Source: Enterococcus mundtii (GTDB taxonomy: Bacteria > Bacillota > Bacilli > Lactobacillales > Enterococcaceae). From it: DNA of 64,000 bases. Each line of letters opens with the position of its first letter. Position 1 is the first letter of the stretch. The notes beneath the pieces are model-generated. The model saw nothing but the letters and a program-made list of their open reading frames with translations, had not been told where the DNA came from and made no database searches. Where the stretch lies: assembly GCF_002813755.1 (NCBI RefSeq), contig NZ_CP018061.1, forward strand, positions 1,230,001-1,294,000, written 5' to 3'. Positions 1,370 through 28,035 of the stretch are shown here, piece after piece. Made by a program: the position numbers and the translations under genes.

Positions 1370-1630
1370 CAACCGATTGACTAAATAACATAATCAGATA
1401 CAATGAATCGAAGTTATTTGCCAAATCTGTTTATCATCTCTTGGTTTAAATGAACAATAACTGAATAATAGTTTTGTTTTTCACAAGATATAAATATTTA
1501 TATATAAGTGTTTATTTGTATATAATACACTATATTGTGATTAATTGAACAATATAAGGTCGCTATTTTTAAATAAGTTATTATGTTATAAAAATAATGT
1601 AACAAAAAAATATTGGAAGGAAGGTATGAT

Positions 1631-6812: not shown

Positions 6813-7637
6813 GTGCGCTCAGCGATAATGATGCTATTTGATCGAATGATGGAATATTTGAATGGGGACAATATTGCAGAAACCTTAAGCCGTGGTTTGC
6901 AAGATTACATGGCAGATGCCTATCGAGTAGCAGGAATCATCCAACAAACGATCATAGCTCCAGTTGCATTTTCAATACTAGCGATATTCATCTTATTTGA
7001 ATTTCAAAAAATTTCTTTAAAAGTAGAGAATGCAGGTGGTGCTCCAACTTTGGGATTTGAAATGATCATGAAAGCATTTGTAAAATTTATTATTTGTTAT
7101 ATTGTCATCTTAAGAATCCAAGTGATTCTCGATGCCATTGTCGCATTAGGGGCAATGTTAGCAGGGCAAATAATGGCCCTAAATAGAGATGATTTTTTAA
7201 GTTCTTATCGCAATGTAGTCAATTCAGCAGTAAGCAATCTTTCGTGGTGGGAAGTAATGGTCGTATTAATGATTTTTGTTGTTCTATTTTTAGTTTCTTT
7301 AGTAGTAGGGGTCTTTATCAATGTCATCGTTTATATAAGATTTTTTGAATTATATATATTCAGTGCGATTGCTCCTATTTCGATGGCGGCATTACCCCAT
7401 CAAGAGTTTTCATCGATGGCAAAAGGATTTTTCAAGAATTTTGCAGCTTCCTCCTTACATGCTGTAATGATCGCATTAGTATTGACCATTTATCCTTTGA
7501 TTTTTGTGAATTTCTTAAATAGTCATAGGAGTGGCATGTGGTCGCTGATTTTTGGTTTGACGATTTACATGATTGCTTTGATGTTTGCAATAAATAAGAC
7601 AAAAGGATGGGCGAAAATGATTGTATCCGCCTCATAG
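6813..7637 (+). CDS. VirB6/PrgH/TrsL-like polytopic T4SS channel protein
   Basis: An integral membrane protein of 274 aa with about six hydrophobic stretches (roughly residues 45-66, 89-118, 148-172, 172-195, 213-235 and 245-262), the profile of the inner-membrane channel subunit of type IV secretion systems. The start is GTG with GAAAGAAGG seven bases upstream. It is preceded by the small two-TM gene and followed after 15 bases by PrgI, the standard order in Gram-positive conjugation modules. Loops carrying conserved Gly and Pro (IAPISMAALP) resemble the TrbL/VirB6 superfamily. The assignment rests on topology and order, not on a diagnostic motif. Confidence 0.8.
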   Translation: MRSAIMMLFDRMMEYLNGDNIAETLSRGLQDYMADAYRVAGIIQQTIIAPVAFSILAIFILFEFQKISLKVENAGGAPTLGFEMIMKAFVKFIICYIVILRIQVILDAIVALGAMLAGQIMALNRDDFLSSYRNVVNSAVSNLSWWEVMVVLMIFVVLFLVSLVVGVFINVIVYIRFFELYIFSAIAPISMAALPHQEFSSMAKGFFKNFAASSLHAVMIALVLTIYPLIFVNFLNSHRSGMWSLIFGLTIYMIALMFAINKTKGWAKMIVSAS

Positions 7638-7652
7638 AAAGGAATAAAAGCA

Positions 7653-8003
7653 ATGGCAATTGAAGTCAAAGTCCATAAAGATGTACGTGAATATAAAGAA
7701 CGGATCGTAGCAGGTATGAGCGTACGACAATTAGGCTTTCTGTCTGTGGCGGTGTTGACTAACATCGTGATCAGTTTTGTGTTTGTGCGCTTTTTTGGTT
7801 ACTCCATGGACGTGATCAGTTGGCTGATGATTCTCGTTTCAATGCCAATCGTCGCTTTTGGGTGGCTAAAAAAAGAGGGACTGCCTTTTGAACGCTATTT
7901 GAAATACTATTTTATTTACCATTTTGATCAAGGAGTAGTTGTTTATGAAGAATCTGATACGTCCCAATTTCATGAAGGTGAACTTCAGGCAAAACAAGAA
8001 TAA
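7653..8003 (+). CDS. PrgI-family T4SS membrane protein
   Basis: A 116-aa protein of the PrgI family (VirB3-like position). It has a short basic N-terminus with KDVREYKERIVAGMSVRQLG, two membrane segments at about 27-46 and 52-68, and a conserved LPFERYLKYY stretch after the second. PrgI proteins pair with the VirB4 ATPase and are found only in T4SS operons, so this gene anchors the identification of the locus. Its 3' end overlaps the start of virB4 by about 60 bases, consistent with translational coupling. Confidence 0.9.
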   Translation: MAIEVKVHKDVREYKERIVAGMSVRQLGFLSVAVLTNIVISFVFVRFFGYSMDVISWLMILVSMPIVAFGWLKKEGLPFERYLKYYFIYHFDQGVVVYEESDTSQFHEGELQAKQE

Positions 8004-10254
8004 AAAAAATATGCAAGAAGAAAAAAAATCTTTTTTACTTTATGAAGAAATCTATGATAACGGTATTTGTTTAATTACTGAGAATGAATACTCAATAACG
8101 ATCCATATTGACGATATCAGTTATCAACTTTGTTCCGAAGAACAACGTATGCAGATATTCATTAAATATTGTGAGTTCCTAAATTCTTTGGAAGCTTCCA
8201 TTGATTACAAAGTCACGTTAGTAAAAAAGAAAAAAACAGTCGAAGAATTGACTCATGTGCTGTTTAAAGAAAAAAATGAACAATATGATGATAAGTACCG
8301 CCAAGAAATGAATGACTATCTAACAGCGAAAATCAACGAAAAGAAGAATGCGTTTGAAAAGAAAATTTTTATTACGTTTACTCAAAAACATGAGAATCAG
8401 GAATTTGCGGAAAGAGAGTTATTCTTGATTGCCGATCAATTGGATCTATTCGCTCGAAAAATTGGTTCGACCATCCATATTTTAAAAGGGGAAGAACGGA
8501 AAGAATTGATCGGTCAAATCATAAATAATGAGAATCATACATTACTACCGAAACAAGTCGATCTCAAATTAGATAAGCGCCTGATCAAGATCGATGACAA
8601 ACTAAATCAGACCCTCTATTTGAATGGTTACCCTGCCGAACTATCTGATGAATGCTTAACAGGTCTTATGGAGATCGATGAAGAAATCACTCTTACGGTT
8701 AGTTGCAGGCCGATACCGATGGCAAGCAGTTTCGACTTAGTAAAGACTAAAATGGCTTACATGGATCAGCAAAAAGTGGATGAACAGCGAAAAGCCTTAA
8801 ATAGTGGGTACGATTATGACATGCTACCCTATGACCTGACTTATTCCCTGGATGAAGCAAAAGAGCTTTTAGATTCATTACAAAGTAAAAGCCAGAAACT
8901 ATTTGAAGTAACTGTGTTGATCAATTTCTCCGCAGAGAATCAGGATAACTTAAATAAAATCGCGAGTAAAATCAAGTCGGTAGGGCGAAGATTTGGTTGC
9001 ACGATCATTGAACTAGCGTATTTACAAAAATTTGCTTTAAATACAATATTACCAATAGGAAAGAATCATGTTCCTTTAAATCGCTTATTGGCAACTTCTG
9101 CGGTTTCGGCGTTGATGCCATTTTCGATTTCTGAAATGCTTCATGAGAATGGCAATTATTATGGGATCAATTCTGTGACAAAAAATCTGACGATTCTTGA
9201 TCGGAAAAAACTAATGGCGCCCAATGGGTTTGTCTTGGGCACACCAGGATCAGGTAAGAGTTTCTCTGTCAAACGGGAAATCGTCAATGTTTTACTGAGA
9301 AACGCCAAAGACGAAGTGATCGTCATTGATCCTGAATCAGAATATCAGCATATTTGCTCGCAATTTGATGGTCAAATGGTTCGATTGGCTGGTAATTCAA
9401 ACACCTGCATCAATCCGATGGATATCAATAGTAACTATGGCGATGATGCAGACCCGATCGCTTTAAAAACACAGTTTTTGATTTCACTTTGTGAGTTGAT
9501 CACGGGGGGGATTTTAGGGCTATCTTCCCAACAAAAGACGATCATCGACCGAGTATGCCGAAAAATTTACCAAGAACAGACACAGTTGCCGACATTAAAA
9601 GATTTTTATACGGCGCTAAATGCACAGCCAGAAGAAGAGGCAAAGCAATTGGCGATTGAATTGGAGCTTTATACAGAAGGTAGTCTAGCGCTATTTTCCA
9701 AACAAACGAACGTGGATTTAAATAAACGTTTGGTCATTTTCGACATCAAAGATTTAGGGAAACAACTCAAACCATTCGGAATGTTGGTCGTTTTAGATCA
9801 AATTTGGAATCGAATCACATTAAATCGAGAATCAGGAATCCGTACATGGTTATATATAGATGAATTACAGTTGCTCTTTACAAATGAATATTCAGAAAAT
9901 TATTTCTTTGAATTGTGGAGTAGAGCAAGAAAATGGGGGGCTATACCGACAGGGATCACCCAAAATGTCGAGACGCTATTATTGTCGGATCTAGCCAGAA
10001 GAATGCTTTCTAATAGCGATTTCGTTGTCATGTTCAATCAAGCAAAATCTGATCGCTCAGAGTTGACTCGTTTATTCGATATATCGGAAGAGCAGGAAAA
10101 GTATGTTTTAAATGGGAGTGAAGGTACTGGTTTGATGGTGTTTGGGGACACGATCATTCCATTTGAAGACCGACTGCCTAAAGAGACGAAACTCTATCAA
10201 ATCATGACAACTAAACCTGGTGAAGAGGTAAAAACAAAGCAAGATTATGAATGA
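7945..10254 (+). CDS. VirB4-type T4SS ATPase
   Basis: Cytoplasmic or peripheral ATPase that energises type IV secretion. Walker A GTPGSGKS is at about residues 432-439, and Walker B LYIDELQ near 636 is followed by the RARKWGAIPTGITQN motif typical of VirB4/TraE. I chose ATG 7945, ten bases after AAGGAG. TTG 7939 is too close to that site, and ATG 8011 lies beyond the PrgI stop and is an alternative. At about 769 aa the length is normal. The gene overlaps PrgI upstream and the hydrolase gene downstream (8 bases), so expression is probably coupled. Confidence 0.93.
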   Translation: MKNLIRPNFMKVNFRQNKNKKNMQEEKKSFLLYEEIYDNGICLITENEYSITIHIDDISYQLCSEEQRMQIFIKYCEFLNSLEASIDYKVTLVKKKKTVEELTHVLFKEKNEQYDDKYRQEMNDYLTAKINEKKNAFEKKIFITFTQKHENQEFAERELFLIADQLDLFARKIGSTIHILKGEERKELIGQIINNENHTLLPKQVDLKLDKRLIKIDDKLNQTLYLNGYPAELSDECLTGLMEIDEEITLTVSCRPIPMASSFDLVKTKMAYMDQQKVDEQRKALNSGYDYDMLPYDLTYSLDEAKELLDSLQSKSQKLFEVTVLINFSAENQDNLNKIASKIKSVGRRFGCTIIELAYLQKFALNTILPIGKNHVPLNRLLATSAVSALMPFSISEMLHENGNYYGINSVTKNLTILDRKKLMAPNGFVLGTPGSGKSFSVKREIVNVLLRNAKDEVIVIDPESEYQHICSQFDGQMVRLAGNSNTCINPMDINSNYGDDADPIALKTQFLISLCELITGGILGLSSQQKTIIDRVCRKIYQEQTQLPTLKDFYTALNAQPEEEAKQLAIELELYTEGSLALFSKQTNVDLNKRLVIFDIKDLGKQLKPFGMLVVLDQIWNRITLNRESGIRTWLYIDELQLLFTNEYSENYFFELWSRARKWGAIPTGITQNVETLLLSDLARRMLSNSDFVVMFNQAKSDRSELTRLFDISEEQEKYVLNGSEGTGLMVFGDTIIPFEDRLPKETKLYQIMTTKPGEEVKTKQDYE

Positions 10255-13200
10255 AACATACGAGGGGAATAAACAAGAAAACAACAAGCAGCAAGATCTG
10301 TTATCGATCAAATTGAAACGTGTCAGTACGAAAGAGCAAAAAAAGAAAGCACTGAAAAAACGACTCCGATTCAAAAAACGTCAACAAAAATTAGCGAGAA
10401 AAAAAAGAGATAGCTTACAGCCGAAAAATAGAAATATCGTTGATTTCAAACAACATATGGTGAATAGCCAGTCAAGAAAAGAGCCATTAAGTAAAGGCGC
10501 AACAAGCAAAAAACCATATGCTAGTCATTTTAAAAAGCGTCATCTTATAACAAATAAAAAAAAGTTAAACAAAATCAATAGTAACAAACAACATAGTACC
10601 ACAAGAGAAAAGGCCTATTTCATAAAGAATAAACATCGCTCTCCTAAAGAAATCAATCATGCGCTTTTAGGAATAAAAAAAAGACAAACTTCACCTAATA
10701 ATAGTGGAACGAATCAGCGAAGTCAGCTTTTTTCTGAAAAAATCAATAAACAAAAACTAGGATCAAAAAAATTCTACCATAAGAAACAAGAAAAGCTAGG
10801 TAAAAATGTTCTCAATCTATCTGGCATAAAGAATACACTTACTACGAATAAGCAGACCAGAGCAAAGAAGCTTGAAGAGAAACTATTCGGCATCAAAGAC
10901 AAACTTGAACGTAAACATCAAGTGTTAAGTAACTCCAACAAAGTTAAACGATTAAAAAAGCAAACAAAAATGCCATCGAAAAAAAAATTCAAACCCAAAC
11001 TGAAAAAAAATCTGGCACAAACAGCCATAGACACAGTTGGCAGGAACAAAGATGGCGAATTGAATATTCTTGGAGTTCTTTTAGTCTTATTTATTATTCT
11101 CAAACTGATCCTCATGTTGTTGTCCGTCAAAGTAATGATGATCTTGGCGGTCGTCATCGTCGTTATCGTCGTGATTATCGCCATCTTTAATTTTATCGCT
11201 AGTATATTTACTATAAAAACGGAAGATATGGCATTAGCAGAGGCGTATGAGCATGTCACACTTTTGGATGCCAGAAAGAACAAAGAAGTGCAACAAGTTT
11301 TTGAAGATTTTTCAGAAAATTCTGAAATCGAAGAAGTATATTTTGTTGTAAATGGTGTTGCAAGACCAGATAACAATTTTATCTATAGCTCTGATGCAGA
11401 TACGTACCTCTATTACCTGAATGCAAAATATGAAGATTATAACATCAGTAAACGTATCTCAGCGAGTAGCAATATCTTTGGTGCAACAAGAGTTCGTGGA
11501 GAAGTAGAAGGAATCCATGGGTATACCTTTAGTTACACAACGAAAATCGAAACAAGAGAAGTACCAATTATTTATCCTGATGAGACTGATCCAGAAGAGG
11601 ATGGATCGGAAGACTCTGAAGACGATGATGAATCAGAAGAACCGGATGATTCAGAAGAAGACGAGGACTCAGAAGAAGAACCGGATGATTCAGAAGAAGA
11701 CGAGGACTCAGAAGAAGAAGCAGATGATTCGGAGGAAGATGAGGATTCAGAAGAAGAACCGGATGATTCGGAGGAAGACGAGGACTCAGAAGAAGAACCG
11801 GATGATTCAGAAGAAGATGAGGACTCAGAAGAAGAACCGAATGATTCAGAAGAAGACGAGGACTCAGAAGAAGAACCGAATGATTCCGAAGAAAATCAAA
11901 CGAATGACACTCTAAATGGGGACCAACCCCCTACCCCTCGTAATGAAGAAGATCGTCCAACGCATCGTACGATAAAAGTGGCGTTGATCAATATTGAGAT
12001 CAAAACAATCAGTCAGTTTATTGATGAAAATTCAGATACGCTGACAGAGGAAGAACTAGATAAGTTTGGACCGATCCAAGAATTGGACCGATTTGAGAAT
12101 AAAGTATTTTTGCAAAGTCCTTTTGGCATGAACCAAGACGCCATCGTTGTTCAAAAATATGGCTATCGAGGATCAAATGACAGAAATAGACATGATCATA
12201 TCGAGCTGTTGGCTGAGCCTGGCACGCCTGTCTATGGCATCGATAATTCTGGATCAGGAAGAGTACATGCTGCTGGCAATGATTATGTCACTATCAATAC
12301 TTCTTTGAGCAAAAGAGTTGTGTTGTCTCCATTAAAAAATGTCCGAGTGAGAAATGGTGAGTGGATAGATGCCGATACAATCGTAGGAGAAACCACAGGA
12401 AATTTAAAGGTTGAAGTCATTGAACGTCGAACATTCTGGCCAAACAGACATATTTATCCATCTGCTTATATTTTTGATCTGGAATTTCAATATCCTTCTG
12501 AGATAGAAGGATTTACACATCATTCTTCAAGAACGATCTCAGGAAGTCTTAAAAATCCTGGACAAATGATTTTACAATGGGAACATCTTGTTCGAGAAGC
12601 TTGTGAAAAGTATGGGATTCCAGAGTATGTCAACATGATTTTGGCAATCATCCAAGTAGAATCCGGTGGTGATGCAGAAAGATTCCCTGATATTATGCAG
12701 GCTAGTGAGTCACAAGGTTTGTCTCCTAATACGATCGATGATCCAGAACTATCAATTGATCGAGGCACCCACTATTTTGCCCAATTATTAAGCAAAGCGA
12801 GAGACTTACATCTTGATGATCGTGCGGCTCTTCAAGCCTATAACTACGGAGAAGACTTTTTAAACTGGTTAGCAACTACCAATAACCAATATAGCTTCTT
12901 TCAGGCAGAGTTATATGCAAGGGAAAAAAGCAACAGACAGACTGTTACTTATACCCATCCAGTAGCGTTAGCATATGGATTTTCATGGCGATATGCTTAT
13001 GGAAATATGTTCTATGTTCCTATAGTAACTAACTATCTATGGCTCGAAAACTCAGATTTCCTTGAGGCTGCAATCAATGAGATTGGCACGATCCAAGGAG
13101 AGAAGTACTGGCGATGGTATGGATTTGAAGGAAGAGTAGAGTGGTGTGCGATCTTTGTGAGTTGGGTAGCAGATCAAGTAGGGTATCTCAACCAAGAAAA

Positions 13201-13474
13201 AATAATCAAGTCTGCTAACTGTTTACAAATGATCAACTGGTTTACTGAAAAAGGGAACTATAAGAAAGCTTCAGAGAACTATCATCCACAACCAGGTGAT
13301 TTGATTTTCTTTGATTGGAATGGAGGTGGTACTGGAAAAGATCACGTTGGGATCGTAGAGTTTACAGATGGTAATATCATCCAGACCGTCGAAGGTAATA
13401 CTGCTGATAAAGTAGCTAGAAGGACCTATTTTATCAATGATCCAAGCATTTCAGGTTACGGTATTCTTCAATAA
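10247..13474 (+). CDS. PrgK-like T4SS cell-wall hydrolase (degenerate M23, lysozyme-like and CHAP domains)
   Basis: A large bitopic protein that opens peptidoglycan for the secretion channel. Residues 1-260 are extremely Lys/Arg/Gln-rich and presumably cytoplasmic. Hydrophobic segments lie at about 272-318. Then comes an extracellular stalk with a 13-residue acidic repeat (about 465-548). An M23/LytM-like fold (about 625-745) has lost the usual metal ligands: LSPL replaces the YxHL-type motif and LKVEV the HLHFE-type motif. A lysozyme-like domain (about 771-898) has Glu in QVESGG. A CHAP domain (about 938-1075) has Cys in EWCAIFVSW and His in DHVGIVE. The three-domain layout matches PrgK of pCF10-type systems. 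The start overlaps virB4 by 8 bases. Confidence 0.88.
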   Translation: MNETYEGNKQENNKQQDLLSIKLKRVSTKEQKKKALKKRLRFKKRQQKLARKKRDSLQPKNRNIVDFKQHMVNSQSRKEPLSKGATSKKPYASHFKKRHLITNKKKLNKINSNKQHSTTREKAYFIKNKHRSPKEINHALLGIKKRQTSPNNSGTNQRSQLFSEKINKQKLGSKKFYHKKQEKLGKNVLNLSGIKNTLTTNKQTRAKKLEEKLFGIKDKLERKHQVLSNSNKVKRLKKQTKMPSKKKFKPKLKKNLAQTAIDTVGRNKDGELNILGVLLVLFIILKLILMLLSVKVMMILAVVIVVIVVIIAIFNFIASIFTIKTEDMALAEAYEHVTLLDARKNKEVQQVFEDFSENSEIEEVYFVVNGVARPDNNFIYSSDADTYLYYLNAKYEDYNISKRISASSNIFGATRVRGEVEGIHGYTFSYTTKIETREVPIIYPDETDPEEDGSEDSEDDDESEEPDDSEEDEDSEEEPDDSEEDEDSEEEADDSEEDEDSEEEPDDSEEDEDSEEEPDDSEEDEDSEEEPNDSEEDEDSEEEPNDSEENQTNDTLNGDQPPTPRNEEDRPTHRTIKVALINIEIKTISQFIDENSDTLTEEELDKFGPIQELDRFENKVFLQSPFGMNQDAIVVQKYGYRGSNDRNRHDHIELLAEPGTPVYGIDNSGSGRVHAAGNDYVTINTSLSKRVVLSPLKNVRVRNGEWIDADTIVGETTGNLKVEVIERRTFWPNRHIYPSAYIFDLEFQYPSEIEGFTHHSSRTISGSLKNPGQMILQWEHLVREACEKYGIPEYVNMILAIIQVESGGDAERFPDIMQASESQGLSPNTIDDPELSIDRGTHYFAQLLSKARDLHLDDRAALQAYNYGEDFLNWLATTNNQYSFFQAELYAREKSNRQTVTYTHPVALAYGFSWRYAYGNMFYVPIVTNYLWLENSDFLEAAINEIGTIQGEKYWRWYGFEGRVEWCAIFVSWVADQVGYLNQEKIIKSANCLQMINWFTEKGNYKKASENYHPQPGDLIFFDWNGGGTGKDHVGIVEFTDGNIIQTVEGNTADKVARRTYFINDPSISGYGILQ
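11641..11890 (+). repeat. 39-bp tandem repeat encoding the 13-residue acidic unit DDSEEDEDSEEEP
   Basis: Six nearly identical units plus a partial one, with only occasional changes (P to A, D to N). They form a highly negative stalk between the membrane segment and the wall-hydrolase domains of the PrgK-like protein. The near-identity at DNA level suggests that copy number varies between strains. Confidence 0.95.
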
Positions 13475-13493: not shown

Positions 13494-14423
13494 ATGAAAC
13501 AAATAAAAAATATAGTTGAGTCAAAAGAAGGAAAAAGAATCGTGTTTATAGCTATCGGCATTTTCATCACCATGTTCAGTTTTATTTTTTACTCGCTATT
13601 TTTTCATAGCGGTACGAATGAAAACTCGGAAGGTACCGCTAGTAGTAAGCCTTTGTCTGCAAGCGAGCAAAGAAAAGAGGACCTAAATTTAGTAGAAAGA
13701 AATGAAGCCTTAGTTTATAGAGGTATTTGGTATTCTGATCGAGCGGATGGCATGGTTTTGGAATTAAAAAATGACGGAACTTATCAAAGTACCAGTTGGC
13801 TCACAACGGGTCAGTATCGCTTAGTAGATACAAAGCTTGTTCTGACGGACAAAGAGAAAGAGGAAGTTTCTTTTGAGCTGATGACAAGGTTAGGCGAAAC
13901 GATTTTCTTTTATGAAGACAATGAAGGGAACACGACCTATTTCTATCCTAGTGTTGCATTGATGGAAAGGGCCAAAGAAATTATTGATTCCAGTGGGGAA
14001 GAAATCGATGAGATAATCAGTCAAAAATGGAATGACGTGTTACTTCAAGGTAGTTGGACGGGAACGACGATGAATAGTCAAGTGTTGATTGATTTTACAG
14101 AAGACACATTTGTCCAAAGAAAAGTGGAAGACGGAAACGAAATAAGTCGAATTTTTTACTATCGCGTCATTTCTGAAGATATTTCTGAGACGCTATGTGT
14201 ACTTGAACTATCAGTCACAGATGAAAATTCAGCAGTGATGACATTTGAGGTCACCTTAGAAGAGACACAATTCGGTTATCGCATGCATTCCCTCCCAGGG
14301 ATGTTTTTATGGGTAAATGATTACGAAAAACCACATCAAGCTGTGCGATTAACTCAAACAGGTATTTTTAGAGAAGAAAATTCATCTTTAGAACAATTAC
14401 TTGAACATCGCTTGAATGGTTAA
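13494..14423 (+). CDS. Membrane-anchored extracellular protein of the T4SS operon, function unknown
   Basis: A 309-aa protein with a short cytoplasmic head, one membrane segment (about residues 17-39) and an extracytoplasmic part. That part seems to contain two similar beta-rich halves, each beginning with a Gly-x-Trp turn (RGIWYSDRADGMVLELKNDG near 80 and QGSWTGTTMNSQVLIDF near 188), which is reminiscent of lipocalin-like domains. The single-TM N-in topology is also that of VirB8/TcpC proteins, and this system otherwise lacks an obvious VirB8, so a structural T4SS role is possible. I do not recognise the family. It lies 19 bases after the hydrolase gene, with GAGAAAGAG as a likely ribosome binding site. 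Confidence 0.6.
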   Translation: MKQIKNIVESKEGKRIVFIAIGIFITMFSFIFYSLFFHSGTNENSEGTASSKPLSASEQRKEDLNLVERNEALVYRGIWYSDRADGMVLELKNDGTYQSTSWLTTGQYRLVDTKLVLTDKEKEEVSFELMTRLGETIFFYEDNEGNTTYFYPSVALMERAKEIIDSSGEEIDEIISQKWNDVLLQGSWTGTTMNSQVLIDFTEDTFVQRKVEDGNEISRIFYYRVISEDISETLCVLELSVTDENSAVMTFEVTLEETQFGYRMHSLPGMFLWVNDYEKPHQAVRLTQTGIFREENSSLEQLLEHRLNG

Positions 14424-14461: not shown

Positions 14462-17400
14462 ATGTTTTATAAAAAATACGAAGACTATCTTAAAGAATAT
14501 ATAAACAAAGATATTTCAATAAAATCAGTAAAACCTCATGAAGAAAAAGTATTCAATGAGTTTCAAGCAAAAGCAATATTGGATAGTAATCCTGAAACTT
14601 TCAGAGAAGAATTCCACTTCGTTCTAGACTTGATTTCTTCAAGAAAAGAAGTGAACGAAGAAAAGACAAATGATTTAAAACAATCATTTGAAAGGATGCT
14701 CAAAAACATTGATCCATCAGACTACAATACGTTGAGATTCTCCATTTATAAATCGCGGATGATCGTCTTAAAACAAGATATACGTGAGCAAGAAACAAGG
14801 ACAAAAGATGCGGCACCCACTTTTACGTCAAACACACAGTTACAAGCATCTGACGAATTAGTAAGTCCTAAATTAGTGGCTGAACAAGAAAGAAGATTTG
14901 CAGAACAAGCCTCACTCAATAAGAGAGACAACGTAAAGCAAGAAGTTTTATCTAATGAGCAGATCAAAGAGAATGTCTCGATGCACGTAAATTCTGTCCA
15001 CACGACGAATCAATATACAAAAGAAGAACACCATGAAAGGCTTAAAGTGAGTGATTTAAAAGAACAATTTGAAAAAGAACGTTCTTTTAATAAAGAACCG
15101 CATTCAGCTGGAGTACCATCAGGAACAGTCAACAGATTGCGACAATACTATGAAGGTCTGAATCATTCATCAAATGATCATTCACCATTAGAAAGTCGAA
15201 AGTCATCTAGATGGAGAACCCCGCAAAAGAACGATTCGCTGAACGTTCAAAATAGGCAAAATCAACCGACAGATCGACGGAGCCAAAGAGATGAAGGAAC
15301 ATCGTCCTATCAAAAGGCTCCTTCATTAAAAGGTACTAGCGAATTTGTGCGTAGAGGAAACGAAAGCACAGTCTATACGAATGAATCATCACCCACAAAT
15401 AAAGCAGAGCCGGATCAAACCGGCATGACGAACGAAGAATTTCAAAGACGGCGAGATCGATTTGGCAATCTGCCTGGACCAAGTAACGAACCACCAGTCA
15501 TTGAGAGAACAACCCAAAGCGAACCGGATAACTACCAGACAGCTACTTATCAAAATTCACCTAGGCAACAACGAAGTAGTGAGCTAGTACAAGAAGGCAG
15601 AGCAAGCAGGGTAGATAGCAACGATACCTTAAGGACAAATAATGCAGAATCGGGTTCAGCTGGTAGGTCGAATGAAGAAATACAAAGATATCGAGACCGA
15701 TTCGGCAATCTGCCTGGACCAAGTAATGAACCACCAGTCATCGAGAGAACAACTCAAAGCGAATCGGATAATTATCAGACAGCTACTTATCAAAATCCAC
15801 CTAGGCAACAACGAAGTAGTGAGCTAGTACAAGAAGGCAGAGCAAGCAGGGTAGATAGCAACGATACCTTAAGGACAAATAATGCAGAATCGGGTTCAGC
15901 TGGTAGGTCGAATGAAGAAATACAAAGATATCGAGACCGATTTGGCAATCTGCCTGGACCAAGTAACGAACCACCAGTCATTGAGAGAACAAATCAAAGA
16001 AAACCGGCTAACTACCAGACAGCTACTTATCAAAATCCACCTAGGCAGCAACGAAGTAGTGAGCTAGTGCAAGAAGCTCAAGCTAGTAGGGTAGATAACA
16101 ATGACTCGTTAAGGACAAACAATGCAGAATGGAATCAAACTGGTAGGGCGAACGAAGAATTTCAAAGATATCGAGACCGATTTGGTAATCTGCCTGGACC
16201 AAGTAACGAACCACCAGTCATCGAGAGAACAACCCAAAGCGAACCGGATAATTATCAGACAGCTACTTATCAAAATCCACCTAGGCAGCAACGAAGTAGT
16301 GAGCTAGTGCAAGAAAGTCAAGCTAGTAGGATAGATAACAATGACTCATTAAGGACAAACAATGCAGAATTGAGTCAAACTGGTAGGGCTGACGAAGAAT
16401 TTCAAAATCTTCGTGCTCGATTTGAAAACCTGACTGGTACAAGCAGTGAACCATCACTTTCAAAGAAAAAGAGTCGTGGAGAGAGTGAACATCAAGGAAC
16501 TTCTTATCATAGAGCTATCACCAGGCATGACAGTAGTGAAAGCGTACGTAAAGTAAACGAAAGCGCAGTTGATACGAATGATTCATCATCTGCAAATAAA
16601 ATAAAATCGAATCAAACCGGCTTGACGAATGAAGAATTCCAAAACCGTCGCGCTCGATTTGAAAATCCTAGTGTAAAAAGTGATAACCGCCTTGCAACAG
16701 AAGCAACGGGTCAAGTGAGGGCAGCGAGAGACCAGTTTGAAAAAGCGAGCAATCTTCCTGACGACCGACCAGCTCCAGAATCCACGGGACGAGTGAGAGC
16801 AACGAGGGACCAGTTTGAAAAAGCAAATGCCCATCCAAATGAGCGACCAGTTCCAGAATCCACGGGACGAGTGAGAGCAACGAGGGACCAGTTTGAAAAA
16901 GCGAATGCCCATCCAAATGAGCGACCAGTTCCCGAATCAACGGGTCGAGTGAGAGCAGCGAGAGATCAGTTTGAAAAAGCGAGTGACCTTCCTGACGACC
17001 GACCAGCTCCAGAATCCACGGGACGAGTGAGAGCAGCGAGGGACCAGTTTGAAAAAGCGAATGCCCATCCAAATGAGCGACCAGTTCCCGAATCAACGGG
17101 TCGAGTGAGGGCAGCGAGAGACCAGTTTGAAAAAGCGAATGCCCATCCAAATGAGCGACCAGTTCCCGAATCAACGGGTCGAGTGAGGGCAGCGAGAGAC
17201 CAGTTTGAAAAAGCGAGTAATCTTCCCAATGACCGACCAGTTTCCGAATCAACGGGTCGAGTTGAAGAGATGCGAAGACAGTACGAGTCCAGAAATGGGA
17301 GAGAAACTGAAGCTAGTGTCTCTAACGAAACATTCCAACAACAAAATGGCTTGGCTAATGAAAGATTTCGTCAACGCCGAGACCAATTTGAAAATCCTGT

Positions 17401-19162
17401 TGTAACAAGTAGTGATGGATCAAAATCAGAAGAAACTGCTATAGCCGATCAGCTAGATCGTAGAAAAGAAACAAGCAACCAACCTACTGCTAACTCTGCT
17501 GATCAAACAGGTATCGCTGCTGGTAATACGAAAAAAATCCGTGAATTGTTAGCTGATAAACTCAAATTTAATCCAGTAGAGAAAGTACCACCTGAAACAA
17601 ATACCCAAACAGCTACTCAAATAGATAGTTCCCATCCACCAGTAGAGGAATCTGCCTCTGACACTCAAAACAGCCAAATGAGAAATCAGATGCGTGAAGG
17701 TGGTGAACTGAGATCAACGAAACTGGATGGAACGAGTACAGCAACTGGAGGAATGGATAAAAAGCAGTCGCAAAGCACAGTTGATTCTTTAGATAAACTT
17801 GGAATAGACGTGAGTAGTGATACTTTTGGTTTAAATGAGAATGCTTCAGATAAAACGGATAAATCTACTGAGACCGATTCTATGAACGACGATGTAGAAT
17901 TGCCAGGATCAGTACCGCTTACAGAAAAAAAGAAAATCCATACAAAAAAAAGCCGAGCGATTCAAATCGGAAGACTTTTGTTGAACTTACTACCATTAGC
18001 ATCTTGGCCGTTGATCAGTATGTGGGTAACTGGCATTTTAGGTATCGTTCCAATTTACTTTGCTATGTATGGACTACCATTAACTCGGTTTATTTACGTG
18101 ACTATTTTGATTGCCGTTTATGGACCAAAACTCATCAACTATATTCTTAAACTTCGTTCTAGAATACAAACCTATCGCCAGGCAGAACGAAGTCGACAGA
18201 GAAACTTAGAAGATCGAGTGATTGATCCAAAAGAAAAATCAATTCAAAGAGAAACTGCCGCTCATGAGAAAGAAACAGCAAAAACAAAACAACAGAATCA
18301 CTCATCAGAAAAAGTCAGTCCTGAAAATTCAGAAAAAGACAAATCTGTAAAGGGTTATTTTAAAAGAAATTGGAAATCTCTCGCCATCATCTTTGGTGTT
18401 GGGATAGTTGTAGCAGGAATTGGTATCGCACTGACACCAGTAATAGCACCATATATATTTGCGATAGCCACTTCAACTCCGTTATTTATGTACAAAGTAA
18501 CTTCAGTTATTGCAATGGCACTTGCGGTTTCCTTTGGTGTGACCGCCTTGAGTAAAGGACTGCATGCACTACAAAGAAAGTTTTATAAAAAAGAAGATCA
18601 AACATTAGAAACCACAACACAAAAAGAAACAATCGAAAAAAATTCTTTAGAGGTAGATAAGAATTTTGATAAAGCCTATGAAAAAGTGGATAAGGATGAT
18701 CGGGCACCTGCCCATGATAATTCGTCAATAAAAAGTGCTGGTTCAAAAGAAGATGGCATAAAACTCGCTAGTAATGAGACGAAATCAATGGAAAAAAGTC
18801 CATATGCATGGGTCTATGGTCAAGAGACAGAAAACAAAACCCAAAATGAAGCGAATCGTTCAAGTCGGTCGAATTCGTTCAATACCCATGAAACACTTCA
18901 TGTGAAAGCGGATATTCATGAGCCACCATCACAGTCCTCTCGTGATAACCGTACGACGAATCAATTAGGTGAAGCCGCAAGACATCGGTTGGATAATACA
19001 AAATCTGAAAGTAATCCACAGATTACTGAACAGAATAAGGGAATCAATCGTCAGCCGGCCGTCAAAGAGGCATTTGATTCAATCAAACAAAAAGCAATTT
19101 CGAAGAGTAATAATGTCAGTGGCAAGCCCCTACTGAAAGGTCAAATATCTTTTGAAAAATAA
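14462..19162 (+). CDS. Giant 1566-aa repeat protein with C-terminal membrane segments and ISKS tail; possible T4SS substrate or component
   Basis: I do not recognise the family. Residues 1-115 form a compact helical domain. A long hydrophilic region follows, with 80-residue repeats (about 325-644 plus diverged flanking copies) and seven 26-residue repeats (752-933). The C-terminal third has two hydrophobic hairpins (about 1164-1240 and 1297-1366) separated by charged linkers. There is no signal peptide. The extreme C-terminus carries KAISKSN, also found at the ends of two small proteins further down the operon. The ATG is preceded by GGAGGAG. It lies between T4SS structural genes and a MucBP surface protein, so it may be delivered by or tethered to the channel. 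That is inference. Confidence 0.6.
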   Translation: MFYKKYEDYLKEYINKDISIKSVKPHEEKVFNEFQAKAILDSNPETFREEFHFVLDLISSRKEVNEEKTNDLKQSFERMLKNIDPSDYNTLRFSIYKSRMIVLKQDIREQETRTKDAAPTFTSNTQLQASDELVSPKLVAEQERRFAEQASLNKRDNVKQEVLSNEQIKENVSMHVNSVHTTNQYTKEEHHERLKVSDLKEQFEKERSFNKEPHSAGVPSGTVNRLRQYYEGLNHSSNDHSPLESRKSSRWRTPQKNDSLNVQNRQNQPTDRRSQRDEGTSSYQKAPSLKGTSEFVRRGNESTVYTNESSPTNKAEPDQTGMTNEEFQRRRDRFGNLPGPSNEPPVIERTTQSEPDNYQTATYQNSPRQQRSSELVQEGRASRVDSNDTLRTNNAESGSAGRSNEEIQRYRDRFGNLPGPSNEPPVIERTTQSESDNYQTATYQNPPRQQRSSELVQEGRASRVDSNDTLRTNNAESGSAGRSNEEIQRYRDRFGNLPGPSNEPPVIERTNQRKPANYQTATYQNPPRQQRSSELVQEAQASRVDNNDSLRTNNAEWNQTGRANEEFQRYRDRFGNLPGPSNEPPVIERTTQSEPDNYQTATYQNPPRQQRSSELVQESQASRIDNNDSLRTNNAELSQTGRADEEFQNLRARFENLTGTSSEPSLSKKKSRGESEHQGTSYHRAITRHDSSESVRKVNESAVDTNDSSSANKIKSNQTGLTNEEFQNRRARFENPSVKSDNRLATEATGQVRAARDQFEKASNLPDDRPAPESTGRVRATRDQFEKANAHPNERPVPESTGRVRATRDQFEKANAHPNERPVPESTGRVRAARDQFEKASDLPDDRPAPESTGRVRAARDQFEKANAHPNERPVPESTGRVRAARDQFEKANAHPNERPVPESTGRVRAARDQFEKASNLPNDRPVSESTGRVEEMRRQYESRNGRETEASVSNETFQQQNGLANERFRQRRDQFENPVVTSSDGSKSEETAIADQLDRRKETSNQPTANSADQTGIAAGNTKKIRELLADKLKFNPVEKVPPETNTQTATQIDSSHPPVEESASDTQNSQMRNQMREGGELRSTKLDGTSTATGGMDKKQSQSTVDSLDKLGIDVSSDTFGLNENASDKTDKSTETDSMNDDVELPGSVPLTEKKKIHTKKSRAIQIGRLLLNLLPLASWPLISMWVTGILGIVPIYFAMYGLPLTRFIYVTILIAVYGPKLINYILKLRSRIQTYRQAERSRQRNLEDRVIDPKEKSIQRETAAHEKETAKTKQQNHSSEKVSPENSEKDKSVKGYFKRNWKSLAIIFGVGIVVAGIGIALTPVIAPYIFAIATSTPLFMYKVTSVIAMALAVSFGVTALSKGLHALQRKFYKKEDQTLETTTQKETIEKNSLEVDKNFDKAYEKVDKDDRAPAHDNSSIKSAGSKEDGIKLASNETKSMEKSPYAWVYGQETENKTQNEANRSSRSNSFNTHETLHVKADIHEPPSQSSRDNRTTNQLGEAARHRLDNTKSESNPQITEQNKGINRQPAVKEAFDSIKQKAISKSNNVSGKPLLKGQISFEK
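15434..16393 (+). repeat. Four 240-bp tandem repeats (80 aa) in the giant T4SS-linked protein
   Basis: The units begin at 15434, 15674, 15914 and 16154 and are close to identical at DNA level. Each encodes EEFQRYRDRFGNLPGPSNEP followed by a Gln/Asn/Ser/Thr-rich spacer. Diverged partial copies flank the array on both sides (about 15340-15433 and 16394-16680). The perfect 240-base period shows recent expansion. Confidence 0.95.
16715..17260 (+). repeat. Seven 78-bp tandem repeats (26 aa) in the giant T4SS-linked protein
   Basis: The unit encodes VRAARDQFEKA-(S/N)-x-x-P-(D/N)-(D/E)-RP-x-PESTGR. Two alternating subtypes (ASNLPDDRPAP and ANAHPNERPVP) are mixed along the array, which points to unequal recombination. 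The RxRDQFEK core is the same as the RDRFGN core of the adjacent 80-aa repeat. Confidence 0.95.
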
Positions 19163-19182
19163 AGAATACGGAGAGAGATTCA

Positions 19183-21759
19183 ATGAATAAAATCAAACTA
19201 ATGAGCATATTTAGCGTCATCTTGTTGCTCTTGCATTTTCCAGTGAGTGTTTATGCTACTTTTAATGATTATATGCTCAATGAGATCCATCAAGGAAAGA
19301 GCTTACGTGCATGGTTGTATGACGAAGGAGAAAACGCAATCTCTCAACAAATCAATGCTACACCACAAGTAGATGGTTCTTTGGGGGTTGATGTGGGGGA
19401 TAGTGTGAGTTTTTCGGTTAATATTCCTACCTACGCCCTGGTGGCAGACCGAGGTGGTTGGATTCCAGCACTGACGGGAGGTAAGAGTGGAAATACGCCT
19501 GTCCCCAATTACTTTTATACTCAGATGCGTTATGGAAAGTCACCAAATCTGCCAGGTAATTTTAGCATAGGTGAGGTGACCGCGACAAATCTTCCTTCGG
19601 GAGTGACCATTAGCAGGGTAGTTGGCCCGACTACGGGAAATCTTACAAGAGTTGATGTGACAGTTACTAGGTCACAGGTGAGTGCGGCAAATGGCCATAC
19701 TAACTCAATCAATCTTAACTTGAGTTCGCTTTATTTAGATACATGGGCAATTGATCCAACAACTGCTGATTTTTTTGGAAACAACCCGATTAATGTAGGG
19801 GGTATTACACTTACTAATCTTAATTTGGGCACATTGTCACTGCGAACAAAAAATTTAATCAGAGTGAGATATATCGATGAGGAAAGTAATGAACTCCGAG
19901 ATCCACTGGTAGAACAAATGGAGGTTGGTCAAAACTATGCGTATACACCTCCAGTCATTCCGGGATATACCTTCAGCAGATTATCATCTGGAAGCGCAAG
20001 TGCTTCCGGTCAGATGGCAGCTGGTCCGGAAAGACTTGTTGAATTTGTCTATACAAAGAATCCAACGGTGGGCGGAGCGATCACGGTGAACCACGAATTT
20101 ATCGGTGCTTCAAGTATGAATAGCAGTGAACGATTCACAAACGTGGGGAATGTGGGCGATCGATTTGAATTGACACCTAGAACAGAAGCTGGCTGGCAAG
20201 TAAAAGGTGAATTGCCAGAAGTGGTAGTGACAGAACAAGCACAAACGGTGACGATTCAATACGAGCGAAAACCTGGAGGTGCCATCACCGTCAATCATGA
20301 ATTCATTGGCGATTCTTCTATGAATACGAACGAAGTGATTACAGATGTCGGGAATGTCGGTGATCGTTTTGAAATGACGCCACGAAAAGAAGCGGGTTGG
20401 CAAGTAAAAGGTGAGTTGCCAGAAGTGATAGTGACAGAACAAGCACAAACGGTGACGATCCAATACGAGCGAAAACCTGGAGGTGCCATCACCGTCAATC
20501 ATGAATTCATTGGTGATTCTTCTATGAATACGAACGAAGTGATTACAGATGTCGGGAATGTCGGTGATCGTTTTGAAATGACGCCACGAAAAGAAGCGGG
20601 TTGGCAAGTAAAAGGTGAGTTGCCAGAAGTGATAGTGACAGAACAAGCACAAACGGTGACGATCCAATACGAGCGAAAACCTGGAGGTGCCATCACCGTC
20701 AATCATGAATTCATTGGCGATTCTTCTATGAATACGAACGAAGTGATTACAGATGTCGGGAATGTTGGTGATCGTTTTGAAATGACGCCACGAAAAGAAG
20801 CGGGTTGGCAAGTAAAAGGTGAGTTGCCAGAAGTGATAGTGACAGAACAAGCACAAACGGTGACGATCCAATACGAGCGAAAACCTGGAGGTGCCATCAC
20901 CGTCAATCATGAATTCATTGGCGATTCTTCTATGAATACGAACGAAGTGATTACAGATGTCGGGAATGTCGGTGATCGTTTTGAATTGACGCCACGAACA
21001 GAAGCGGGTTGGCAAGTAAAAGGTGAATTGCCAGAAGTGATAGTGACAGAACAAGCACAAACGGTGACGATCCAATACGAGCGGAAACCTGGAGGTGCCA
21101 TCACCGTCAATCATGAATTCATTGGCGATTCTTCTATGAATACGAACGAAGTGATTACAGATGTCGGGAATGTCGGTGATCGTTTTGAAATGACGCCACG
21201 AAAAGAAGCGGGTTGGCAAGTAAAAGGTGAGTTGCCAGAAGTGATAGTGACAGAACAAGCACAAACGTTAACGATCCAATACGAGCGTAAAGTTGGCGGT
21301 CAAGTAGTCGTCAACCACATTTTTGAGGAAGCACCTGAAAAAAATCGAATGGACATTCTACTTGGACGTTGGGGAGAAGCTTTTAAGGCGGAGCCAATGC
21401 AAATAGCTGGTTGGGAAGTAAAAGAAACCATCGGCCAACCTACAGGTGTATTTACAGATGAGAAGCAAGAGATAAATTTCATCTATGTTAGGAATGAGGA
21501 GCAGCCGATACCAGAGGAAGACAAACCTAATGATAATAAGGATAAGTACCCTGAGACAAAACCGGTGGACCAAACAACTAACAAAAAAACTTCAACTAAA
21601 AAGAATGATGGGGTCGCAATCAGAAGAAAAGAAGAGAAGCGTTCGCTACCAAGATTGAATAGTCAAGCAGGTATTTCCTTAACTGTAGTAGGGACGTCAA
21701 TGGTTGCATTTGTCTTTTGGAAACAACTAAAAAAGCGAACTAAATGTAAAAATAAATGA
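19183..21759 (+). CDS. Surface protein with MucBP-type repeats and degenerate C-terminal sorting signal
   Basis: A predicted wall- or membrane-attached adhesin of 858 aa. The signal peptide is about residues 1-25 (cleavage near VYA). A non-repeated N-terminal domain reaches about residue 220. One classic MucBP module follows (IRVRYIDEESNELRDP..., about 225-295), then six 68-residue beta modules beginning with AITVNHEFIG and a seventh diverged one beginning with QVVVNHIFEE. After a hydrophilic spacer the C-terminus reads LPRLN, a hydrophobic helix and a Lys/Arg-rich tail. This has the shape of a sortase signal, but Thr and Gly of LPxTG are replaced. MucBP modules bind mucin or other glycans in lactobacilli. 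It lies 20 bases after the giant repeat protein, so it is probably part of the same transcript and may promote cell-cell contact. Confidence 0.85.
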   Translation: MNKIKLMSIFSVILLLLHFPVSVYATFNDYMLNEIHQGKSLRAWLYDEGENAISQQINATPQVDGSLGVDVGDSVSFSVNIPTYALVADRGGWIPALTGGKSGNTPVPNYFYTQMRYGKSPNLPGNFSIGEVTATNLPSGVTISRVVGPTTGNLTRVDVTVTRSQVSAANGHTNSINLNLSSLYLDTWAIDPTTADFFGNNPINVGGITLTNLNLGTLSLRTKNLIRVRYIDEESNELRDPLVEQMEVGQNYAYTPPVIPGYTFSRLSSGSASASGQMAAGPERLVEFVYTKNPTVGGAITVNHEFIGASSMNSSERFTNVGNVGDRFELTPRTEAGWQVKGELPEVVVTEQAQTVTIQYERKPGGAITVNHEFIGDSSMNTNEVITDVGNVGDRFEMTPRKEAGWQVKGELPEVIVTEQAQTVTIQYERKPGGAITVNHEFIGDSSMNTNEVITDVGNVGDRFEMTPRKEAGWQVKGELPEVIVTEQAQTVTIQYERKPGGAITVNHEFIGDSSMNTNEVITDVGNVGDRFEMTPRKEAGWQVKGELPEVIVTEQAQTVTIQYERKPGGAITVNHEFIGDSSMNTNEVITDVGNVGDRFELTPRTEAGWQVKGELPEVIVTEQAQTVTIQYERKPGGAITVNHEFIGDSSMNTNEVITDVGNVGDRFEMTPRKEAGWQVKGELPEVIVTEQAQTLTIQYERKVGGQVVVNHIFEEAPEKNRMDILLGRWGEAFKAEPMQIAGWEVKETIGQPTGVFTDEKQEINFIYVRNEEQPIPEEDKPNDNKDKYPETKPVDQTTNKKTSTKKNDGVAIRRKEEKRSLPRLNSQAGISLTVVGTSMVAFVFWKQLKKRTKCKNK
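20077..21300 (+). repeat. Six 204-bp tandem repeats (68 aa) in the MucBP surface protein
   Basis: Units start at 20077 (diverged), 20281, 20485, 20689, 20893 and 21097. The last five are almost base-for-base identical, so copy number is likely to vary between strains and the array could be mis-assembled in short-read data. Confidence 0.97.
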
Positions 21760-21790
21760 TACCAAACGTTTGATTTAAAGGAGGAGTTCG

Positions 21791-22351
21791 ATGATCACCA
21801 ATGAACAGCCAGATCCAGAGGTAAAAATGCTACAAAAAACATCCTTGAAAACACCTAAATTTGGTTTTATGGGACTGAAATATTTAGGAAGATTTGTCGT
21901 AAAAGTGACGAAGATGATCAAAAATAGAATCACAAAAAAGAAAGAAAAAGAGCAATCACCTTTAGAAGCATCTGCTAATACGACGAAGGCAACTAAAAAA
22001 CAACCTGTCAAGTTGGAAGCTGCGAAAGAAAAAGCGCCTGTTGTAAAAAATATCGCAACAAAAACCAATCGGAACCTTTTTCAGTTTTTATACAAATTAG
22101 GAGCGAACTTCATGAAGTTTGATCTATTAAAGAGTATAAAGACACTCGGTATTGGTGCTACCTCTTCACAACGAAGAATTAAATCAGCCGAAGTCAAAAC
22201 AGTGAAAGCGGCAAAACAACAATCCGTTGCTAAAATCAAAAAATTGAGCTTTTCCACAGTAAAAAAAGAGGCAATCAGTAAAAGTAATAAAATCAATCAA
22301 TTATCAAAAAATAATCAGTTAACTAGAAGACCGTCATTGCAAAGATCATAA
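21791..22351 (+). CDS. Highly basic hydrophilic protein with C-terminal ISKS tail, unknown function
   Basis: A 186-aa Lys-rich protein with no signal peptide and no clear membrane segment, preceded by AAAGGAGGAG. The N-terminal third contains a FGFMGLKYLGRFVVKV stretch that may be amphipathic; the rest is low-complexity Lys/Ala/Ser. The tail STVKKEAISKSNK closely resembles SIKQKAISKSNN at the end of the 1566-aa protein upstream. Within the T4SS run this similarity is most simply explained by a common recognition signal. No enzymatic domain is recognisable. Confidence 0.6.
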   Translation: MITNEQPDPEVKMLQKTSLKTPKFGFMGLKYLGRFVVKVTKMIKNRITKKKEKEQSPLEASANTTKATKKQPVKLEAAKEKAPVVKNIATKTNRNLFQFLYKLGANFMKFDLLKSIKTLGIGATSSQRRIKSAEVKTVKAAKQQSVAKIKKLSFSTVKKEAISKSNKINQLSKNNQLTRRPSLQRS

Positions 22352-22397
22352 AGAATTCTCATGATCAATTGGAGGCATCCTGATTGGAGGAGAAAGA

Positions 22398-22577
22398 ATG
22401 GAATATGAGCGTATGAGTGATGAACAACGAAGAAACGGTCGCGAAACTAAGCGAATCCAAACAACGAAAAGGATAGAAGAAAACAAGAGAGAGCAAGAAC
22501 GCGTTTATTTGGAGAGTGTTCGATCGTCAGAGGGATTCAAACGTTCGTTACAAAAGAAAAATAAAAATAAGAAATAA
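22398..22577 (+). CDS. Small 59-aa charged protein, unknown function
   Basis: The ORF starts at ATG with GGAGGAG seven bases upstream and ends with TAA at 22575-22577. The product is rich in Arg, Lys, Glu and Gln, with a helical look (MSDEQRRNGRETKRIQTTKR...) and a very basic C-terminus KKNKNKK. It sits between the two ISKS-tailed genes on the same strand. The strong ribosome binding site and the operon position support a real gene. I cannot assign a function; a small accessory or chaperone-like partner is possible. Confidence 0.6.
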   Translation: MEYERMSDEQRRNGRETKRIQTTKRIEENKREQERVYLESVRSSEGFKRSLQKKNKNKK

Positions 22578-22644
22578 GTCATTTTGTTCATAAATAATAT
22601 CGCGAAGACAGATAAAGGATTTCTTTAAGAAAGTGGGAATGATA

Positions 22645-23835
22645 ATGGATGAACAACTCATAAAATTAAACCAAAGAATTGCACGCATAAAAGATATCAA
22701 TGATCCTGAATACGATCGCTTAGTAGCAGAGAGAAATAAGGTGCGACAACAAATCGCTGCGCGGAATGAAAGACAGTCGGCCGCTTCATCCAGTACCTCG
22801 AGAGTAACTGAAGTAAAAACTGATCCTAAAAAGATTCAGCAATTAACGGAAAAAATTTCAGAGAAACAAGCGCAAATAAACCGTATCAAAGATATGAGTG
22901 ATCCCCGCTATGAAAAATTAGAAGCGGAGAAAACACAGTTGATCAGAGAAAGAGAAACTGAACGTCTCAAATCAGCTAAGAGTCATGAACTTACAGACAA
23001 AACAGGCATAGCTGGGCAAGCGAATAGGGACTCAACGATCGTCAAAACAGATTTAAAAAATGTCCAAAAAATGATCCACCACGATCTGGATCAACAATTT
23101 GAAAAACTATCTAATTTTTTTGAGGAGTATAAATTTCAGTATGATTCATCAAAGGATGAAAAAAACATCAAGGAATTAGGTGAGAATATCGACATGCATA
23201 AAAAAAGATATGACCTGAAGATGAAAAATAGTTTTAATGACGCGGGTTTCTATGGCAGGTTTAAGAAAAATGAAAAACAAAGTGAACTAGCACTCGGAAA
23301 TTTTATCGAAACCTGGAAAGAAGACCAAGGCTACCATCGAGATACTCATTCCGCTATTGAAAAAATCCATGAATTGAAAGAAAAAATTGTAAAAAATCAT
23401 AATTTAGAGAAATACAGTATGAAAGTCAACACAAAACAAAATGAATTAGCCGAATTACAAAGTAAAAAACAGCGAATCAATTTTTTTAGTAAGTATATTT
23501 TTAACCGCGAAAAATATCGTCAATTAAAAAATCAGATCCATGAATTAAAAAACGAATTGAATATTATAGGAGAAGCTCGATCACTAGCTATGAAAGGCGA
23601 TTTCACAAAAGCAGAGGCTTTATTCAATGTGAGTGAACGCACAGGGACTTCTCATGAAGTGAAGCAGCGAAGACTTACTCAAAAAACGTTATCGCCTTCC
23701 TTGGCTACAAGTATTCCTGGTCCTAGTAAACTGCAAAACAAAATGGAAGCAAGCATAAGCAAATCAGCAGAAATCATGCAACGCAAGAGTTCAGAGAAAT
23801 TGCGTAGTTCTTCCCCTAAAGAGCAACGCGCATAA
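22645..23835 (+). CDS. Coiled-coil hydrophilic protein with duplicated N-terminal unit and ISKS tail
   Basis: About 396 aa, soluble and mostly helical. Two similar segments open the protein (IKLNQRIARIKDINDPEYDRL near 5-25 and KISEKQAQINRIKDMSDPRY near 75-95), each a short coiled coil ending in IKDxxDPxY. A second helical region spans about 135-330, and the C-terminal tail contains ASISKSAEIMQRKSSEK, 26 residues from the end. In-frame starts exist at GTG 22633, ATG 22639 and ATG 22645. None has an ideal ribosome binding site, so the start is uncertain by a few codons. It is the last gene before a strong inverted repeat and a surface-protein cluster. The function is unknown. The shared tail suggests that it is handled by the same machinery as the upstream ISKS proteins. 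Confidence 0.65.
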   Translation: MDEQLIKLNQRIARIKDINDPEYDRLVAERNKVRQQIAARNERQSAASSSTSRVTEVKTDPKKIQQLTEKISEKQAQINRIKDMSDPRYEKLEAEKTQLIRERETERLKSAKSHELTDKTGIAGQANRDSTIVKTDLKNVQKMIHHDLDQQFEKLSNFFEEYKFQYDSSKDEKNIKELGENIDMHKKRYDLKMKNSFNDAGFYGRFKKNEKQSELALGNFIETWKEDQGYHRDTHSAIEKIHELKEKIVKNHNLEKYSMKVNTKQNELAELQSKKQRINFFSKYIFNREKYRQLKNQIHELKNELNIIGEARSLAMKGDFTKAEALFNVSERTGTSHEVKQRRLTQKTLSPSLATSIPGPSKLQNKMEASISKSAEIMQRKSSEKLRSSSPKEQRA

Positions 23836-26863: not shown

Positions 26864-26917
26864 CGGGCATAGATGTACGAGATAAAAGAATGATAATGAC
26901 TAGGAGACGTTCAACCA

Positions 26918-27442: not shown

Positions 27443-27466
27443 TCCAATTTAAGTGAGGCTACCTAA

Positions 27467-28030: not shown

Positions 28031-28035
28031 AGCGA

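Follow-up and report, generated by a model that had tools for sequence, protein, structure and literature searches.

The plasmids pMG2200, pEfmO_03 and pCF10, whose VirD4 belongs to the CD1115 family, carry the same core of VirD4, VirB4, PrgI, VirB6-like and PrgK-like proteins as a type IV secretion system (T4SS) locus that we describe here from the chromosome of Enterococcus mundtii (contig NZ_CP018061.1, positions 1,230,001 to 1,294,000; this whole stretch of 64,000 nucleotides is termed the window, and coordinates count from its first letter). Some such conjugative elements encode PcfB and ArdC/YodL-type proteins with common C-terminal tails, and three proteins of the locus end in a common tail as well. 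Unlike these elements, however, the locus holds no relaxase that we could find and neither PcfB nor ArdC among its proteins by Pfam, and the residues of its tails largely differ. The bacteria-killing X-T4SS of Xanthomonadales combines a C-terminal signal (XVIPCD) with VirD4-type coupling. C-terminal signals with a VirD4-type or related coupling system are also reported for the BID proteins of Bartonella and the E-block proteins of Legionella (PMC10025392). All three of these systems are diderm, and they are likened to the locus by the kind of signal alone.

Among Gram-positive bacteria, the 89K T4SS of Streptococcus suis has been reported to secrete a protein (SspA-1) and is, like our locus, a Gram-positive T4SS proposed for protein export (PMC12857230; PMC4897608). 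It also moves DNA (PMC3132442), and signal peptides are predicted for six of its seven candidate effectors, unlike the tail type of the locus (PMC4897608). Polyvalent proteins such as ArdC and YodL are predicted to travel with DNA through T4SSs (PMC5512222), and several of them have PcfB-like tails; the tail proteins of the window, by contrast, match no Pfam domain (E<=0.01). A review of December 2025 calls the near-exclusive DNA-transfer role of known Gram-positive T4SSs surprising, and dedicated effector T4SSs in Gram-positives a long-standing question (PMC12857230). Among the papers listed in searches at the level of titles and abstract openings (subscription papers and preprints lay outside these), none dealt with the C-terminal signal of CD1115-family substrates or with this locus.

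The locus is a Gram-positive T4SS of the CD1115/CD1110 type, with all features given here on the + strand. Its VirD4-like coupling protein (4805..6544) scores 520 bits with the CD1115-family model NF045973 (cut-off 250) and matches PF02534, its VirB4-like ATPase (7939..10254) scores 885 bits with the CD1110-family model NF045971 (cut-off 325), and a PrgI family protein (7653..8003; PF12666) and a PrgK-like lysozyme/CHAP protein (10247..13474; PF13702, PF05257) are present. The core further includes a small membrane protein, C95 (6496..6783), which adjoins VirD4 and is kept in the paralogous type-B loci described below (74%), and a VirB6/TrbL-like protein (6813..7637), which reaches 18.9 bits with PF04610, below the cut-off of 25.9, and is 55-58% identical to its type-B counterpart. 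Three relaxase families were searched. No MOBP relaxase (PF03432) was found on the chromosome, the profile matching only contig C2, below cut-off; a Rep_trans (PF02486) protein lies ~0.95 Mb from the locus; and Mob_Pre (PF01076) had no match in the genome, though its control was silent as well. A Pfam scan of 16 locus proteins, with the regulators, a 456-aa protein and att sites outside its range, found no integrase.

An earlier note on this DNA had proposed that three proteins encoded downstream of the core share a C-terminal tail with the word ISKS, and this observation was confirmed. The 1566-aa protein (14462..19162), hereafter Big, ends in SIKQKAISKSNNVSGKPLLKGQISFEK with its tail motif FDSIKQKAISKSNNVS at 19073..19120; the 186-aa protein (21791..22351) ends in STVKKEAISKSNKINQLSKNNQLTRRPSLQRS with FSTVKKEAISKSNKIN at 22250..22297; and the 400-aa helical protein (22633..23835, from a GTG start at 22633; 398 or 396 aa from ATGs) ends in NKMEASISKSAEIMQRKSSEKLRSSSPKEQRA with LQNKMEASISKSAEIM at 23731..23778. 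ISKS begins 21, 25 and 26 residues from the C-terminus, respectively. Elsewhere the three candidate substrates are unrelated, with no mutual BLASTP match at E<=1e-3, and the 59-aa basic protein encoded between them (22398..22577) lacks the tail, both as the note had stated. Among 362 background open reading frames (ORFs) from 400 kb of the same genome, a single one has [AS]ISKS within its last 35 aa, and any common 4-mer was seen in 139 of 200,000 shuffled tail triples and in 2 of 200,000 triples of real C-termini. A DNA pattern for the motif, blind to AGY serine at the first position and hence to the codon type used by the 400-aa protein, hit 66 places in the genome, nine of which truly encode [AS]ISKS; three of the nine lie in long frames, namely those of the 1566-aa and 186-aa proteins and a 323-codon frame that we take to be WhiA, and the others in frames of 20-61 codons.

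The tails of the 1566-aa and 186-aa proteins align over 19 residues with a score of 51 (z 4.7), ranking first of 136 pairs of C-termini at the locus. The 400-aa tail aligns poorly to them, with scores of 23 and 32, a score of at least 30 being reached by 36 of 780 hydrophilic background pairs; its membership therefore rests on the ISKS word and helix-like spacing, and the 400-aa protein is the weakest of the three candidate substrates. In its family, 16 rows carry ISKS, VSKS or VNKS, and in its structure model a low-confidence helix (residues 366-392) holds the motif and is preceded by a stretch with pLDDT <50. Its N-terminal part (22633-22990) appears to consist of two copies of a helical-hairpin unit, at residues ~9-45 and ~67-105. 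The 1566-aa protein, for its part, has hydrophobic segments and long tandem repeats, NEEFQRYRDRFGNLPGPSNEPPVIERT and TGRVRAARDQFEKANAHPNERPVPES, at 15400-17300, whose number varies among three E. mundtii-type genomes.

ISKS was dismissed as the motif itself: homologues spell it VSKS, VNKS or ITKS, and tails of the type-B loci do not use it, so that the profile xAISKSx, with which the earlier note would have searched, is merely the local spelling and would miss these relatives. What recurs, with ISKS as one spelling, is a looser motif of spaced residues. Type B is a paralogous T4SS locus in the same genome and in relatives, with VirB4 56-58% identical to that of the window (in 9 of 15 genus genomes) and VirD4 68-73%, and no relaxase was found in these loci. 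Three accessory families recur in them, Big (810-1525 aa), Small (104-133 aa) and End (202-264 aa); type-B Big shares homology with the 1566-aa protein in the region of its hydrophobic segments, and End proteins align with the 186-aa protein. Between the loci of two genomes, G000 and G009, Big (31% identity over 320 aa) and End (30% over 166 aa) have diverged fast relative to VirD4 (81%) and VirB4 (84%), as have Small proteins; VirB6-like and PrgI stand at 73% and 72%, and PrgK and the 309-aa homologue at 52% and 51%.

By eye, the type-B tails follow phi-x2-phi-x3-[AS]-x3-[SAT], where phi is hydrophobic, or a wide form in which position 4 or 5 is hydrophobic. Our test set comprised 23 proteins from eight loci (G000, G002, G005, G006, G008, G009, G013 and G014), the loci of G007 and G011, close to G000, being excluded; a Small ORF could not be found in G005, nor an End in G008. 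The wide form matches 20 of the 23 type-B tails (all except Big of G005 and Big and Small of G009) and all three type-A tails, as we call those of the window's own kind. Shuffled tails gave a mean of 2.2 and a maximum of 8 in 2000 rounds, and the wide form occurs in 4 of 82 hydrophilic 60-residue segments from the interior of these proteins, in 3 of 33 hydrophilic background C-termini and in 43 of all 362. Since this pattern was picked after the data had been seen, we scanned 285,120 four-position patterns built from six residue classes, a reduced-alphabet scan that took the place of full-alphabet expectation-maximization (EM). Best of all was phi..phi...[AS]...[AS], with 16 of 23 tails (1.63 expected, z 11.3), the best z among 40 shuffled sets being 8.58. 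Selected on Big alone, this pattern again came first, and it matched 10 of the 15 tails outside the Big family (1.25 expected) and two of the three window tails (0.28 expected); the strict pattern is found in 2 of 33 hydrophilic background C-termini and in 32 of 362 overall.

In an unguided alignment of nine End proteins, only an N-terminal Glu and the Ala of the motif are invariant; an alignment of Big did not put all tails into register. Of 14 End homologues found, which include the window-type P0024-P0026, six were read: P0029, P0035, P0036 and P0037 have the motif, P0033 has a 3-aa deletion inside it and P0034 has no tail, a number too small for an independent test. A profile of 20 type-B tails, run against 1945 C-termini, found the 1566-aa tail at E 7.5e-4 and the 186-aa tail at E 0.71. 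Pairwise alignment of C-termini inside six type-B loci gave mostly nothing, Big and Small of G000 reaching z 4.0.

Loci in which we could find no VirD4 served as controls. These type C loci, with a VirB4 at 43-45%, were read in two genomes (L055-L058; G000:C1 ~2475-2487 kb and G005:C2 ~381-394 kb), and a VirB4 of about this identity (44-46%) occurs in eight genus genomes. In the two loci, VirB4, PrgI, VirB6-like and PrgK-like proteins lie beside LPXTG-type surface proteins. A genome search with TraG-D_C gave no match near the G000 locus, and no VirD4 match fell to type C in G000 or G005. Among 20 T4SS-linked ORFs of the two loci there was no polar tail with the motif; the strict pattern matched three of them, a hydrophobic 67-69-aa protein twice and a 337-aa protein once, and the G005 counterpart of the latter was unmatched. 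Other ORFs of the type-B loci and their flanks match the wide pattern near background (21 of 155).

Tails shared across unrelated proteins are also seen in several conjugative elements, with letters specific to each element. We built a profile from 17 PcfB tails of elements with CD1115- or CD1110-type genes. It finds eleven proteins of 959-1165 aa related to annotated YodL/ArdC (E 3.6e-4 to 2.5e-3), the ArdC-like protein of pEfmO_03 (E 0.0015), two near-identical relaxases in G028 and G020 (E 0.0019; 56% to annotated relaxases) and ArdC-related 353-aa proteins (E 0.007-0.008), the first of the 362 background proteins appearing at E 0.27. In pMG2200, a plasmid outside the training set, it finds PcfB, YodL (0.0016) and a 314-aa protein (5e-4), whose tails ([KR]PSIR) form the top three of 66 pairs by score. 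Similar pairs are the zeta (L201 8068-8730) and FtsK-labelled proteins of a Paenibacillus plasmid (z 5.8, second of 36), a DUF3801 and a small protein in Brevibacillus (z 4.1, first of 45) and, weaker, a 2422-aa helicase and SSB in a S. suis record (L196 33370-41276; z 3.1, fourth of 66). On this resemblance the zeta-toxin family protein, the helicase and SSB would be candidate co-transferred proteins.

The window tails reach alignment scores of up to 43 with PcfB tails, and each type-A tail is closer to them than 149 of 150 sampled background C-termini. The wide form occurs in 9 of the 17 PcfB tails (3.0 in shuffles), and 5 match when Asn is allowed at position 12 (1.4 expected); the motif residues of types A and B are only partly the same as those of the conjugative tails. 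The end of the plasmid VirD4 itself tends to be acidic, seven of eight plasmids having a net charge of -5 to -13 over its final 40 residues; the corresponding values are +6 in the S. suis record, -14 and +5 in type B of G009 and G000, and -1 in the window (records L081, L082, L197-L201 and L028).

The locus is a ~30-kb insertion (-1.7 to 28.5 kb) between two genes, which we take to be pbp1A (window 28495-30903) and nth; in the six other genus genomes compared, of 15, they are direct neighbours in three, separated by one ORF in two and by five ORFs in one. The 400-aa protein is present in 3 of 15 genus genomes, and type A is accordingly counted in 3 of 15; four of eight named homologues of the protein are from E. 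mundtii. A membrane-anchored protein of 309 aa (13494..14423), found in 8 of 105 family genomes, accompanies loci of types A and B. The stretches that separate and follow the genes of the tail proteins (19183-21759 and 23984-28407) encode MucBP-repeat and other surface proteins (DUF285, InlB-like repeats, a degenerate LPXTG-like end), which may be adhesins for the same system. The left end of the island (29-4769) presumably holds two Mga/AtxA-type regulators flanking a secreted chitin-binding protein of LPMO type; what we take to be such regulators also stand at the start of type-B loci, which adjoin, where the end was read, a gene that we assume to be menA-like.

The explanation that we favour, by a narrow measure and from sequence comparison, is that of a relaxase-less CD1115/CD1110-type T4SS in which the tails would be C-terminal docking signals that lead proteins by way of VirD4 to export. 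A polar, basic and probably disordered C-terminus would bear a short amphipathic helix in which position 1 and position 4 or 5 are hydrophobic and positions 8 and 12 are small, for which AISKS or SISKS would be the type-A spelling. The VirD4-like coupling protein would bind this tail and hand the protein to the VirB4/PrgK channel, and the 1566-aa and 186-aa proteins would be exported to the surface or to a neighbouring cell, as would, with less certainty, the 400-aa protein. The helix in the free tail, VirD4 binding, export, the target and the effect are what we infer here. The suggestion of the earlier note that the three proteins may be T4SS substrates is partly supported, its direction being in line with the type-B tails, the VirD4-less controls and the conjugative tails, while the link to relaxases stays thin and the case of the 400-aa protein weak.

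Several results weigh against this reading. The tail of the 1566-aa protein is clearly more conserved than its own protein, and those of the 186-aa and 400-aa proteins are not; the 400-aa tail was not among the matches listed for the type-B profile in the 1945 C-termini. With End or Small as the only family for selection, the top-ranked pattern was a different one and failed to carry over. Full-alphabet EM was not significant at W=16 (log-likelihood 143.3, shuffles 134.2-144.3), and at W=14 (148.3 vs 124.3-133.8) and W=18 (166.2 vs 135.9-156.2) the placement in the tails was inconsistent. On the conjugative side, the PcfB-tail profile matches none of seven annotated plasmid relaxases, which leaves the two near-identical ones as a thin link; no shared tail was seen among the best five pairs in pCF10 and L. 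paracasei; and 2-3 of 40 hydrophilic background C-termini are equally PcfB-tail-like. The strict motif is not enriched in PcfB tails (1 of 17, 0.8 expected), and because of this a likeness of kind more than of residues is claimed.

The tails may also dock on VirD4 or another part of the machine for proteins that remain in the producer as components or recruiters, which we consider unlikely but deserving of serious attention. It would suit this that type-B Big lies directly upstream of virD4, the position held by PcfB in plasmids, that PcfB itself has the shared tail and may act as a recruiter in the cell, and that Big and Small have hydrophobic segments. Delivery is better fitted by the far greater divergence of Big, Small and End compared with VirD4 and VirB4, a point that is not decisive since PrgK and the 309-aa homologue also diverge, and by the tail-sharing ArdC/YodL-type proteins being predicted cargo (PMC5512222). 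A rather improbable alternative accepts the tails as real in a type-A system that is decaying and has lost export in many strains. E. mundtii Pe161 (G011) indeed has virD4 and the MucBP gene each split over two frames, the type-B loci of G006 (a remnant without virB4) and G008 are broken, and in the deletion fusions P0022 and P0023 of other strains an N-terminal stretch of Big, or the MucBP protein, runs in frame into the C-terminal end portion of the 400-aa protein; yet virD4, virB4 and prgK have open frames both in the window and in G007, and across the three type-A genomes VirB4 is 96-99% and VirD4 >99% identical.

The same fusions bear on a further alternative, improbable to almost the same degree and marginally the least credible to us, in which the tails reflect common descent, exchange of 3' ends or composition bias and have no common function. 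P0022 and P0023, which retain the 400-aa tail, show that exchange of 3' ends can occur, and a further deletion fusion, in G006 (L026 13058-14557), joins the N-terminus of VirD4 to an End2-like C-terminus with a tail kept; basic Ser/Lys-rich tails ease short matches, as the shuffled triples with a common 4-mer indicate, and tails are not independent of each other because of homology inside each family. Against composition alone argue the cross-family test of the Big-selected pattern and the shuffles corrected for pattern choice.

Export by way of VirD4 may, more broadly, make types A and B of enterococci a relaxase-free translocator with a C-terminal amphipathic helix related to that of PcfB, ArdC/YodL and some relaxase tails, and Big an effector delivered to neighbouring cells; judged from sequence, this wider proposal is tentative and rather doubtful. 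The locus is nevertheless a chromosomal, relaxase-less candidate for an effector T4SS, with named putative cargo and a testable signal. Should the PcfB and ArdC/YodL tails be signals of this kind too, the cargo of many CD1115-type mobile elements could be predicted from sequence.

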